Of a DNA stretch of 10,304 bases, positions 7,730-10,281 are shown piece by piece (the stretch's first letter is position 1; each line of letters opens with the position of its first letter). A program made the position numbers and the translations under genes. Source of the stretch: an uncultured Cloacibacillus sp. Lineage in GTDB: Bacteria > Synergistota > Synergistia > Synergistales > Synergistaceae. A model generated the notes under the pieces. The model was not told the DNA's origin. It worked only from the letters and a program-made list of their open reading frames with translations, and did not search any database. The DNA lies in contig CAKSWL010000061.1 in assembly GCA_934511335.1 (NCBI GenBank), positions 1-10,304 on the forward strand. Reading direction: 5' to 3'.

Positions 7730-8901
7730 TGAAGGATTTTCGCGTCGAGGAGCGTTTGGGCGATTTTAAGACCGAGGCCCCCGTCCACAAGGAGGTAAAA
7801 GATATAGCCGAATTGCCGGCGGAGGACCGCGAGCGGATTTACCGCGCCGGTGTGGACGGGGCGGAGAAGTCGGCCGGGACCTTTGTGCACGCCGACCATA
7901 ACACCGTCTACTGCAATTCGAACCTCAAGGGCGTGGAGCTGATGCCGATCTCCTACGCGCTCTTTAAATATGGCGGGCTCAAAGATTATTGCTGGAAGAT
8001 CATAGATCAGGAAAAGGATGTCTTTACCGAGCGGGCGGCCAAGCGCGCCGAGGGCGGCTATTTTATCCGCACCGAAAGGGGCGCTAAGGTGAATTATCCG
8101 GTGCAGGCCTGCATGTATATCGAGACCGACGCGCTCGCGCAGGATGTGCACAATATCGTCATCGCCGAAGAGGGGTCGGAGCTCAATATTATTTCGGGCT
8201 GCGCCTCTGGGCCGCACGTGCGATCCGGCCTGCATGTCGGCGTCTCCGAGATGTATGTCAAAAAGGGCGCGACCCTCTCTTTCACGATGGTCCACGACTG
8301 GGCCGAGGAGATGTCGGTGCGTCCGCGCACCGTCGTCGTCGTCGAAGAGGGCGGGCGTTACATTTCCAATTATATTTGCCTCAAGCCGGCGAAGGATTTA
8401 CAGATGTATCCGACGGTCTATCTCAACGGAGACAACTCTGTCGCCACTTTCAACACCGTGCTGATGGCGGGCCCCGGCTCGAAGATGGACGCCGGCTCGC
8501 GCGTCTGCCTGCGTGGGAAGGGCAGCCGCGCGGAGATCGTCTCGCGCACAGTATCGACTGGCGGCGAGATATATGCGCGCGGACATCTCATAGGCGAGGA
8601 GGCCGGCGTCAAGGCGCATCTTGAGTGCAACGGCCTGCTGTTATCGGATCAGGGAATGATCCACGCGGTACCGGAGCTCGAGGCGCGCCACCATGATCTG
8701 GAGATGTCGCACGAGGCGGCGGTGGGCAAAATCAATCAGGAGGAGACGGAATACCTGATGGCGCGCGGCCTTTCCGAGGCCGAGGCGCAGTCGCTGATCA
8801 TCAAGGGATTCCTTTCGCTCGACATCATTGGCCTGCCTGAGTCGCTGCGCCGGGATGTGGATAGGATGATAGAGGAATCGACCGCCGCGGGCGCGATGTA
8901 G
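7729..8901 (+). CDS. sufB: SufB/SufD-family Fe-S cluster scaffold (minimal SUF-like, SmsB)
   Basis: This is the scaffold on which iron-sulfur clusters are built, working as a complex with SufC. The protein is 390 aa, shorter than E. coli SufB (about 495) and similar to archaeal SufB-like proteins. The C-terminal core is well conserved. C300 in L-E-C-N-G-L-L-L aligns by motif with the essential Cys405 of E. coli SufB. H328-E329 (S-H-E-A-A-V-G-K-I) matches the H-E-A-T pair, followed by R-G-L-S-E-A-E-A and I-I-K-G-F-L. Other cysteines are C62, C88, C128, C158, C217 and C260. ATG 7729 has AAAGGAG (7713-7719) at 9 nt and overlaps the sufC stop. No SufD, SufS or SufU gene follows, so one subunit probably serves as a homodimeric scaffold. 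SufD is excluded by the retained Cys at position 300. Confidence 0.92.
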   Translation: MKDFRVEERLGDFKTEAPVHKEVKDIAELPAEDRERIYRAGVDGAEKSAGTFVHADHNTVYCNSNLKGVELMPISYALFKYGGLKDYCWKIIDQEKDVFTERAAKRAEGGYFIRTERGAKVNYPVQACMYIETDALAQDVHNIVIAEEGSELNIISGCASGPHVRSGLHVGVSEMYVKKGATLSFTMVHDWAEEMSVRPRTVVVVEEGGRYISNYICLKPAKDLQMYPTVYLNGDNSVATFNTVLMAGPGSKMDAGSRVCLRGKGSRAEIVSRTVSTGGEIYARGHLIGEEAGVKAHLECNGLLLSDQGMIHAVPELEARHHDLEMSHEAAVGKINQEETEYLMARGLSEAEAQSLIIKGFLSLDIIGLPESLRRDVDRMIEESTAAGAM

Positions 8902-9050
8902 CGCCGGCAGGGCGCGCCGCGCGCCTATCGACGCGGCGGATATCGCAGCGAAAGAGGGGCGTTCTCTAAGCGGGAGGCCCGTCTTGTGAAGGGCCGTTGC
9001 ACGGTCAGCGGCCTTTCATGCGTCTGTCCGGTTTTTGCGCAACTTTTTAC
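8902..9050 (+). terminator. sufB downstream region with hairpins; probable but atypical terminator at 8987-9018
   Basis: TGAAGGGCCG (8987-8996) pairs with CGGCCTTTCA (9009-9018; 9 Watson-Crick pairs and one G-T) around a 12-nt loop. No T run follows directly; TTTTT occurs only at 9032-9036. An earlier all-GC hairpin, GGCGCG (8911-8916) / CGCGCC (8920-8925), also lacks a T tract. No gene is seen here. The hairpins probably mark the end of the sufCB transcript. Confidence 0.4.
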
Positions 9051-9079
9051 TTGACCTCTCTTGTTTGAGAGACTAAACT
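9051..9079 (+). promoter_or_regulatory. Sigma70-type promoter of the corA unit
   Basis: TTGACC (9051-9056) and TAAACT (9074-9079) are separated by exactly 17 bp, matching the -35 at 5/6 and the -10 at 4/6. Transcription would start near 9086 and give a leader of about 160 nt before corA. The spacer contains the inverted repeat CTCTC (9056-9060) / GAGAG (9067-9071), a possible operator. Confidence 0.7.
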
Positions 9080-9138
9080 CTATAAGCCGAAACCAAGGAA
9101 AATCAGGCGCTATGCCTGGGAAGGGAGAAATCTTTTTT

Positions 9139-9201
9139 ATGGACGCAAGCGGCCCCAGTCCTGAACCTGCGGGACAACTTTTTTTAATTTTCAGCTGCTG
9201 A
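9139..9201 (+). CDS. Putative corA leader peptide, 20 codons, proline-containing
   Basis: ATG 9139 opens a 20-codon frame ending at TGA 9199-9201. It begins M-D-A-S-G-P-S-P-E-P-A-G-Q and ends in the hydrophobic L-F-L-I-F-S-C. Prolines at positions 6, 8 and 10 alternate with Ser and Glu. AAGGGAG (9121-9127) lies 11 nt upstream, slightly long for a Shine-Dalgarno. An in-frame ATG at 9112 would extend the frame to 29 codons (adding M-P-G-K-G-E-I-F-F), with AAGGA 12 nt upstream. The frame lies between the promoter and corA, and an intrinsic terminator sits inside it. This is typical of attenuation leader peptides. By analogy, the enterobacterial mgtL and corL leader ORFs precede Mg2+ transporter genes, and MgtL is also Pro-rich. 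No similarity to a specific peptide family is claimed; expression is not shown by the sequence. Confidence 0.5.
   Translation: MDASGPSPEPAGQLFLIFSC
9158..9185 (+). terminator. Intrinsic terminator/attenuator inside the corA leader
   Basis: GTCCTG (9158-9163) pairs with CGGGAC (9170-9175; 5 Watson-Crick pairs and one T-G) around a 6-nt loop, followed three bases later by TTTTTTT (9179-9185). GGAC at 9141-9144 could pair with GTCC at 9158-9161 instead, a short possible antiterminator. The hairpin lies entirely within codons 7-13 of the leader frame, so a translating ribosome would prevent it from folding. Confidence 0.6.
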
Positions 9202-9202
9202 T

Positions 9203-9242
9203 CCCGGGCCGTTCCGTACCCGGGTGAAGCGGGTACGGAGGG
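9203..9242 (+). promoter_or_regulatory. Hairpin sequestering the corA Shine-Dalgarno, with alternative pairing
   Basis: TCCGTACCCG (9213-9222) pairs perfectly with CGGGTACGGA (9230-9239), plus a T-G pair at 9212/9240, around the loop GGTGAAG. The corA Shine-Dalgarno GGAGGG (9237-9242) overlaps the 3' arm, so its first four bases are buried. Alternatively CCCGGG at 9203-9208 can pair with CCCGGG at 9219-9224, which would break the 10-bp stem and free the ribosome site. Confidence 0.65.
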
Positions 9243-9248
9243 AATTTT

Positions 9249-10205
9249 ATGTTAAGGATAACAAAAACTACCGAGTCACAGCTCATCGAGCTGACGCCGG
9301 ACCGGATAGAGACCGGTGCGTGGATGAGTCTTGTGCGCCCGACGGCGGACGAACTCAGCACGGTGGAGGAGATAACGGGCGCGCCCCAGGATTTTATCCG
9401 TTCCGCGCTCGACCCTGAAGAGTCTTCGCGCATCGAGATCGAGGACAACCACATTCTCGTCCTGATCAACGTCCCGGTAAACCGCGATTCGCACGTTTAT
9501 GAGTACGATACGATACCGCTTGGCATCATCATCACCCCTGACTATATCGTCACCATCTGCCAAGAATACAACGACGTCATCCAGAATTTTTCCGAGACGC
9601 GCTTTCGTTATTTCAGCACCTTCAAACGCACGCGGCTGCTGTTCCAGTTCCTCTACCGTTCGGCGATGATCTTCCTGAGGGACCTGCGCCAGATGACGCG
9701 CCGTTCCGACCAGATAGAGCAGGACCTGCGCAAATCGATGGAGAACGAGGAGCTCTTTCAGCTGCTCGACCTCCAAAAGGGGCTTACCTATTATTCGATG
9801 TCGCTGCGCTCGAACAAGGTGGTCGTCGAACGGCTGCTGCGCCTCTGCTCCAACCCGCAGGTGAGCCATATCATTAAATTCCGAGAGGAGGACGAGGATC
9901 TGCTTGACGACGTGCGCGTCGAATATGACCAGGCGATCGAGATGGCGCAGATTCAGACCGACGTTCATGCGGGGATGATGGACGCTTTCGCCTCCGTTAT
10001 CTCGAACAATCTCAATATTGTGATGAAGTTCCTCGCCTCGATCACGATCGTCATGGCGATTCCCACGATGATCGCGAGCTTCTTCGGCATGAACGTCCCC
10101 GTGCCTTGGGGGGGCCATCCGCTGGGCTTTGTATTTGTCGGCGTCGTCTCCGTGCTGATGACGATCGCCGCGATCTGGGTGCTGTGGAAGAGGCGCCTTT
10201 TTTAG
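9249..10205 (+). CDS. corA: CorA-family divalent cation transporter
   Basis: CorA is a homopentameric inner-membrane channel importing Mg2+ and sometimes Co2+ or Ni2+. The protein is 318 aa, the normal length. Residues 1 to about 250 form the cytoplasmic funnel, with a long charged helical region (about 150-250). Transmembrane helix 1 is about 258-279 and ends in the selectivity motif G280-M281-N282 (F-G-M-N). Helix 2 is about 292-313, followed by the basic tail K-R-R-L-F. The short loop after GMN (V-P-V-P-W-G-G-H-P) has no acidic residue; Thermotoga CorA has M-P-E-L there. This puts it in a divergent CorA branch whose ion preference is less certain. ATG 9249 is 6 nt after GGAGGG. It has its own promoter, structured leader and terminator, so it forms a single-gene regulated unit. 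Confidence 0.95.
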   Translation: MLRITKTTESQLIELTPDRIETGAWMSLVRPTADELSTVEEITGAPQDFIRSALDPEESSRIEIEDNHILVLINVPVNRDSHVYEYDTIPLGIIITPDYIVTICQEYNDVIQNFSETRFRYFSTFKRTRLLFQFLYRSAMIFLRDLRQMTRRSDQIEQDLRKSMENEELFQLLDLQKGLTYYSMSLRSNKVVVERLLRLCSNPQVSHIIKFREEDEDLLDDVRVEYDQAIEMAQIQTDVHAGMMDAFASVISNNLNIVMKFLASITIVMAIPTMIASFFGMNVPVPWGGHPLGFVFVGVVSVLMTIAAIWVLWKRRLF

Positions 10206-10236: not shown

Positions 10237-10281
10237 GGCGGGATGGCCGCGGTGACAGCCGCGGACATCCCGCCGTTTTTT
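10237..10281 (+). terminator. Strong intrinsic terminator of corA
   Basis: GGCGGGATG (10237-10245) pairs with CATCCCGCC (10266-10274). After a single G/A mismatch, CCGCGG (10247-10252) pairs with CCGCGG (10259-10264) around a TGACAG loop. TTTTTT follows at 10276-10281. The stem begins 31 bases after the corA stop. Confidence 0.93.

Follow-up and report, generated by a model that had tools for sequence, protein, structure and literature searches.

A conserved acidic and proline-containing leader frame upstream of corA in Cloacibacillus, with similar frames before unrelated magnesium importers of anaerobic bacteria

Results

Organization of the corA upstream region

The window (the whole stretch of DNA analyzed, 10,304 nt from an uncultured Cloacibacillus sp.) carries near its end the corA gene, which encodes a CorA-like Mg2+ transporter (Table 1). 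The closest matches of this gene were found in a Synergistaceae MAG and in Candidatus Caccocola (87% and 83% protein identity), and it showed 90% identity to two genomes in a second Synergistota fetch. After corA, a GC-rich long inverted repeat followed by a T run (10237-10281) is likely to be its terminator. An earlier note on this DNA had placed a promoter and a 20-codon frame with a Shine-Dalgarno sequence upstream of corA, and both were borne out. The TTGAC..TAAA[AC]T pair is present in all nine close sequences (the window, L081, L083, L085, L089 and L001-L004) with the leader start 48-61 nt downstream, and the frame, running from an ATG at 9139 to a TGA at 9199-9201, contains Pro at codons 6, 8 and 10, Asp at codon 2 and Glu at codon 9. 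At the place of the small hairpin that precedes the leader Shine-Dalgarno, a hairpin with altered letters was seen by eye in several relatives.

Table 1. Features of the corA upstream region and their positions in the window
Feature	Position	Strand	Remark
Sigma70-like promoter, TTGACC-17 nt-TAAACT	9051..9079	+	From sequence; pair kept in 9/9 close sequences
Small hairpin, CAGGC-GCTAT-GCCTG	9104..9118	+	Directly upstream of leader Shine-Dalgarno
Leader Shine-Dalgarno, AAGGGAG	9121..9127	+	From sequence
Leader ORF, 20 codons, MDASGPSPEPAGQLFLIFSC	9139..9201	+	Codons 1-10 largely conserved, 13-20 not
Region 1, GCGGCCC	9149..9155	+	Inside leader; can pair with region 2
Terminator-like hairpin with T7	9158..9185	+	T tract not conserved, probably not functional
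Region 2, CCCGGGCCGT	9203..9212	+	Directly after leader stop; 9206-9212 can pair with region 1
Region 3, TTCCGTACCCG	9212..9222	+	Strand opposite the Shine-Dalgarno side
Region 4, CGGGTACGGAGGG	9230..9242	+	Contains corA Shine-Dalgarno
corA, CorA-like Mg2+ transporter	9249..10205	+	PF01544, E 9.4e-47

Conservation of the leader is confined to its N-terminal half. The MD start and PS at codons 6-7 are found in 9/9 close sequences and SPEP at codons 7-10 in seven of them (L003 and L004 differ), and from codon 13 onward no conservation was detected among the nine. Since codons 2-10 are almost frozen at the nucleotide level too, comparing synonymous and nonsynonymous changes is uninformative in the window clade. 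We take the leader frame at 9139-9201 to be genuine, with an N-terminal half that relatives keep upstream of corA. Like the MgtL-type leaders, it is a short ORF with a Shine-Dalgarno sequence upstream of a Mg2+ importer gene and has acidic and Pro residues at its extreme N-terminus (M-D-A-S-G-P-S-P-E-P). With Gly at position 5 and Pro at position 6, it fits a looser form of the M-[DE]-x-[DG]-P motif discussed below and not that motif to the letter. No NCBIfam match was obtained for five leader peptides.

The Ser codon directly after the leader Pro (9157-9159 in the window) is AGT, as in 56 of 61 such cases (48/52 and 8/9 in two sets sharing some loci). AGT accounts for 2% of Ser codons across 11 genes of the window and for 8% of those following Pro in long frames of the examined loci. 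Rare-codon use in general does not account for AGT at this place, and rare-codon content of the leader start as a slowing element was tested and not supported.

A terminator-like hairpin inside the frame is not conserved

The earlier note had read the leader as a transcription attenuator, in which an intrinsic terminator lying inside the frame is the output. The hairpin stem (9158-9175) and the T7 tract (9179-9185) do exist in the window, separated by AAC. However, the longest T run at this place, 7 nt in the window, is 1-5 nt in the other eight close sequences, the stem is lost in L003, and terminator-like matches are common in the region (5 between 8000 and 10304, compared to 2.1 +/- 1.4 in shuffles). 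Because of the AAC gap, the abundance of chance matches in the region and the lack of conservation of the T run, the terminator at 9158-9185 is, on these comparisons, most likely a chance occurrence. A conserved attenuator with a U tract was rejected on conservation, the T7 tract being unique to the window among the nine sequences, and attenuation by a terminator within the leader is thus very improbable.

Leaders upstream of corA in Synergistota

Among the 24 Synergistota loci of a first corA homology set (L001-L021, L023, L024 and L028), an acidic and proline-containing frame was found in 16 by a loose scan, which required only an acidic codon 2 and a Pro within the first 14 codons. The forms were MDASGPSPEPxG, MDSxSPSPEPQG, MDSxVPEPAS and similar. 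In a second fetch from 185 genomes, which repeats some places of the first set, our own reading of the frames identified such a frame in 38/68 corA loci, including the more distant forms MESESSARPEPLC, MEGDSPSTTVPRQ and MEGSPSPSPQGPEP. Scans recognised no leader in the remaining 30, two of which (L126 and L129) have by eye a GTG-started MSTGDSPLSR frame. A search of the 185 genomes with the SPEP-form pattern gave 41 matches: 16 of the exact leader form, each directly upstream of a corA match, and 25 scattered ones.

A second layout was observed in some Synergistota loci (L005-L011, L100, L123, L126 and L127), in which the leader is followed by a GC-rich hairpin and then by 100-200 nt; by eye, a C-rich stretch in this segment could pair with the corA Shine-Dalgarno. 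A NiCo riboswitch lies near the corA locus of the close relative L002 (934-1034).

Similar leaders precede corA, mgtE and other importer genes outside Synergistota

We examined 55 corA loci from outside Synergistota, labeled mostly as Clostridia and other Firmicutes with a few archaea. A leader frame was present in 29 by the loose scan and in 26 by a strict form, M[DE]x[DG](x)P with a Shine-Dalgarno sequence within 450 nt; long acid-rich frames listed by the loose scan in L044, L057, L058, L070 and L074 were not counted as leaders. The forms included MDxGPx, MDxDPx and MEADPx, and among 22 leaders tabulated, codon 5 was Pro in 21 cases and codon 4 was Gly or Asp in 19, although the loose scan makes no such demand. 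No leader was recognised in 26 to 29 of the 55 loci. Absence of the frame from relatives had been named as evidence against it: the close relatives retain the leader, and it went unrecognised in the above shares of the wider Synergistota and non-Synergistota corA sets. In Negativicutes (the class of L022, by label), 135 of 150 genomes gave a CorA match, and among the best 30 of these 135 a leader preceded corA in 30/30 (loose scan) or 28/30 (strict form), most commonly MDVDRPS. The strict form occurred before other genes in 9/209 cases, five of them MgtE-fragment genes of Negativicutes and four loci fetched because of the motif.

Genomes were also searched without reference to transporters, using a Shine-Dalgarno sequence followed by M[DE]x[G/D/E]P. 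The sets found in this way hold the motif by construction, and only the homology-selected sets test its presence. In the class of L038 (43 genomes), 12 of 14 matches were upstream of corA; the other two lie inside a long frame that we take to be a release-factor gene. In Clostridia (the class of L068, 391 genomes), all 74 matches were fetched and 38 preceded corA (17) or mgtE (21), two of the latter at distances of 632 and 782 nt, while the remaining 36 were mostly inside longer frames or at ordinary gene starts. The 21 mgtE loci were identified by similarity in all cases and by Pfam in one; the similarity reaches the membrane domain in 20, and the other, L219, ends at the contig end. In Negativicutes (150 genomes), 39 matches were obtained and 30 fetched. 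Eighteen of these preceded a gene whose product has PRC, MgtE N and CBS domains, two lay upstream of an ABC permease gene and ten were inside longer frames. The MgtE-fragment genes encode MgtE N, CBS and PRC-barrel domains without the membrane domain (Pfam on L284, L310 and L313), and an Nramp gene followed in 6/6 loci looked at. The leader, mostly MDSGP.., is kept before these operons in L284-L292, L294-L297, L300 and L304-L307. The leader before the ABC permease gene (L298 and L299, with L315 and L316) is MDDGP; PF00528 was found on L298 and on the longer L315, an ABC ATPase gene is next in L316, and an M-box is also upstream in L298. The permease is possibly part of an uncharacterised Mg2+ ABC importer.

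As grouped in our analysis, the leader occurs in at least four classes (those of L002, L038, L068 and L022) and is thus not one version confined to a single distant bacterium. On the evidence of these sequences, similar acidic and proline-containing tiny genes precede unrelated Mg2+ importers in several groups of anaerobic bacteria. Comparison of the sequences gives strong support to the proposal that a leader of this composition governs a Mg2+ importer in the manner of MgtL.

Composition of the leaders

Stalling of ribosomes at Pro codons, caused by low charged tRNA-Pro or shortage of EF-P, could be the signal instead of a Mg2+-dependent drop-off; stalling of this kind has been proposed for mgtP. 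The window leader has three Pro codons, and prolines are important in MgtL according to the available text of PMC11552253. However, none of 107 leaders has PP among residues 1-12, and in 77 of them the first 10 residues include a single Pro, so polyproline stalling or sensing of proline tRNA fits poorly. In addition, codon 2 is acidic in all 107 (by selection) and codon 4 encodes Asp or Gly in 98 (partly by selection), and in MgtQ the Pro codon is described as mattering only through base pairing (PMC8092293). We consider Pro stalling unlikely and favor drop-off of the ribosome at the acidic and proline-containing start.

M-box aptamers precede part of the leaders

Using Rfam, an M-box aptamer was detected upstream on the strand of the leader in 22/80 leader loci (17/60 and 5/20), counts that are lower bounds as a few loci have little upstream DNA (e.g. 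L242 and L174). None was found in the eight Synergistota loci scanned, and the window gave no covariance-model match to the M-box (RF00380). At the gathering threshold, Rfam 15 reported no family in the window; with E up to 10, four unrelated weak matches (best E 1.1) were obtained in 8900-9300. A riboswitch reading of the window leader was therefore rejected.

Two M-box aptamers in tandem lie before the leader and the MgtE-fragment/Nramp operon in two Negativicutes loci (L286, 1625-2103; L289, 932-1411). In L219 and L178, a terminator-like hairpin of the M-box sits, by eye, between the aptamer and the leader.

The leader RNA can form a switch at the corA Shine-Dalgarno

Two pairings that the earlier note had missed are possible around the end of the frame. 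A conserved hairpin (9213-9222 with 9230-9239) extends into the corA Shine-Dalgarno, and 9149-9155, inside the leader, can pair with 9206-9212. The CCCGGG of region 2 can also pair with the CCCGGG at 9219-9224. In the nine close sequences, 97.8% of the cells of the region 3:4 helix are paired, one of its ten pairs being changed on both sides (in 4/9), and 89.8% of the cells of the region 1:2 helix are paired with no pair changed on both sides. Relative to shuffles, paired cells and covariation score are high for these helices, and doubly changed pairs and pair types are not; the covariation in the two aligned helices is thus thin. For the window leader as a whole, folding was not better than in shuffles (z -1.29). 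Pairing of region 2 with region 3 is not favored at equilibrium in the window, so that this alternative would need co-transcriptional folding.

Switch potential was scored as the best pair of competing helices A:B and B:C between leader start and transporter start, with C covering the transporter Shine-Dalgarno, against dinucleotide shuffles in which the Shine-Dalgarno end was kept. A switch with p <= 0.05 was found in 30/60 segments compared to 9/100 other genes, a control set that included at least two mgtE genes, a bias against the switch claim. The 60 segments represent 57 loci, as L029/L172, L068/L207 and L038/L171 are identical places (none of the six significant). In a new set, 22/30 Negativicutes corA leaders had a switch at p <= 0.05. 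Two of the nine close sequences showed no switch beyond chance (L083, p 0.24; L004, p 0.70). The pattern-found leaders scored among the 60 segments and in the opening-energy calculation below were those within 160 nt of the transporter.

In 26 of the 30 significant segments, arm A begins at a distance of 41-65 nt from the leader start, which places it in the late part of the frame or immediately beyond the stop. This position argues against a frame encoding a small protein acting in trans, as MgtR or MgtU do. The conserved N-terminus speaks for such a protein, but the C-terminal parts differ between groups and the lengths range from 15 to 54 codons, and we regard a product acting in trans as highly unlikely compared to a leader acting in cis.

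None of the 18 MgtE-fragment leaders of Negativicutes showed a switch, and therefore another output would be needed there. This absence is a point in favor of Rho-dependent termination as the output, with the Shine-Dalgarno hairpin secondary; Rho is the known output of the enterobacterial mgtL and corL leaders, as described in PMC11552253 and PMC11282234. In contrast, the Shine-Dalgarno switch in corA leaders is well above controls, which makes Rho an improbable main output. Sequestration of the corA Shine-Dalgarno is the output suggested by the folding data.

A ribosome late in the frame is predicted to hide the Shine-Dalgarno

To model the effect of translation, a ribosome-sized stretch was blocked and the energies needed to open the Shine-Dalgarno were compared. 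A ribosome late in the frame raises the opening energy far more in 71 corA leaders than in 100 controls (p about 7e-16 with relatedness ignored; as the sequences are related, this p-value and those of the switch score overstate independence). The median difference between maximum and no ribosome was +4.0 kcal/mol for Clostridia-type corA (n = 35), +3.8 for the window clade (n = 9), +6.5 for Negativicutes corA (n = 27, three segments over 200 nt having been left out), +6.4 for Clostridia mgtE (n = 12) and +3.1 for Negativicutes MgtE-fragment genes (n = 18), compared to +1.1 for controls (n = 100). With the ribosome at codons 2-6, group means were not raised, except for Negativicutes MgtE-fragment genes (2.9 to 3.4 kcal/mol). 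As the energy rises with a late ribosome and not with an early one, the predicted sign is that finishing the frame hides the Shine-Dalgarno and aborting early leaves it open. According to these models, the RNA of most corA leaders is able to switch, the transporter Shine-Dalgarno being hidden when a ribosome stands late in the frame.

For the class, the calculated sign agrees with a leader whose completion would repress and whose early abortion would induce the transporter. The predicted effect in the window itself is modest: the opening energies are 8.4 kcal/mol without ribosome, 8.6 with the ribosome at codons 2-6, and 9.0 (mean) or 13.8 (maximum) with a late ribosome. The mean unpaired probability of the window corA Shine-Dalgarno is 0.43 without ribosome, 0.22 with the ribosome at the stop and 0.08 with the ribosome at codon 8. 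L002 behaves like the window, and L003 departs from the codon-8 trend. As a departing ribosome would open the site in the window and one stalled at codon 8 would not, drop-off is weakly favored over stalling.

Discussion

Combined, these data lead us to propose that 9139-9201 is the gene of a leader peptide acting in cis and that corA expression depends on ribosomes passing its acidic and proline-containing start, a reading to which we assign a probability of about 0.6. At low Mg2+, a ribosome translating M-D-x-x-G-P-S-P-E-P would be destabilised and would leave the mRNA early; the RNA downstream would then be free to pair, the corA Shine-Dalgarno would be open and CorA would be made. At high Mg2+, the ribosome would reach the end of the frame and break that pairing, so that the hairpin over the corA Shine-Dalgarno would form and CorA would not be made.

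From the sequence comparisons, the best explanation is that the window leader belongs to a wide class found before corA, mgtE and MgtE-fragment/Nramp operons in Synergistota, Clostridia and Negativicutes. There is perhaps an even chance that the M-[DE]-x-[DG]-P leaders form one widespread class across Synergistota and Bacillota in which the Mg2+ need of the ribosome serves as import sensor. Such a class would be attached to CorA, MgtE, MgtE-fragment/Nramp and perhaps a new ABC Mg2+ importer, with a mostly translational output at corA, and would often stand behind an M-box, RNA and ribosome then gauging Mg2+ in series. If this is true, the leaders would represent a strategy of bacteria in general, having arisen or been kept across phyla and having become attached to unrelated importers; in a quarter of the scanned loci, the sensor would stand after an M-box. 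The leaders, about a hundred variants related to one another, would also provide natural material on which sequence rules for a Mg2+-dependent drop-off could be tested.

The concept of intrinsic ribosome destabilisation reportedly goes back to a 2017 paper in Mol Cell. In the literature accessible to us, a few leaders of enterobacteria are described as sensing Mg2+ through destabilisation of the ribosome, and we found no acidic and proline-containing Mg2+ leader outside enterobacteria, an absence that is not proof as subscription journals are thinly covered. The available text of PMC6429828, a study that analyzed one Synergistota genome as well as a corA motif of gamma-proteobacteria, reports no such leader. 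MgtE-fragment/Nramp operons behind M-boxes have been described; in the same account, one Nramp-related protein transports Mg2+ and another, without an M-box, mainly served manganese (PMC4072509).

In the accounts available, four systems resemble the window leader. MgtL, upstream of mgtA in E. coli and Salmonella, is likewise a short frame before a Mg2+ importer gene; its translation is aborted at E-P-D-P (Glu2, Asp4) at low Mg2+, which turns mgtA on, and the motif M-[DE]-x-[DG]-P accommodates its destabilising EPDP at residues 2-5 (PMC11282234). It differs in its output (Rho-dependent termination) and its transporter (MgtA), and it is described in enterobacteria only. Leaders of the MgtL type are characterized by a Mg2+-dependent drop-off of ribosomes that bL31 counters. 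MgtQ, an ORF between mgtC and mgtB in Salmonella, is alike in that destabilisation at Asp2/Glu5 releases the ribosome-binding site of mgtB, whose Shine-Dalgarno is otherwise sequestered in a stem-loop, with the switch partly inside the frame, and the window motif resembles its Asp2/Pro4/Glu5 (PMC8092293); unlike the window leader, MgtQ has 8 codons, precedes mgtB and sits in the middle of an operon. The enterobacterial corL shares the target gene family, and its translation is inverse to corA expression, but as described it contains only one Pro, is less rich in acidic residues and works via Rho (PMC11552253). The nearest known case outside enterobacteria is the mycobacterial M-box uORF (uORF2/Rv1805A at pe20 of Mycobacterium tuberculosis), where, in a Mg2+ context, an M-box is followed by a conserved uORF whose seventh residue is a conserved Pro; its peptide is described as specific to mycobacteria with a role not established, and the window has no M-box (PMC12810186). 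Most likely, by analogy of features, the window leader works like MgtL and MgtQ. The comparison of sequences suggests that the ribosome itself serves as a magnesium gauge in these anaerobes, as is known in E. coli and Salmonella.
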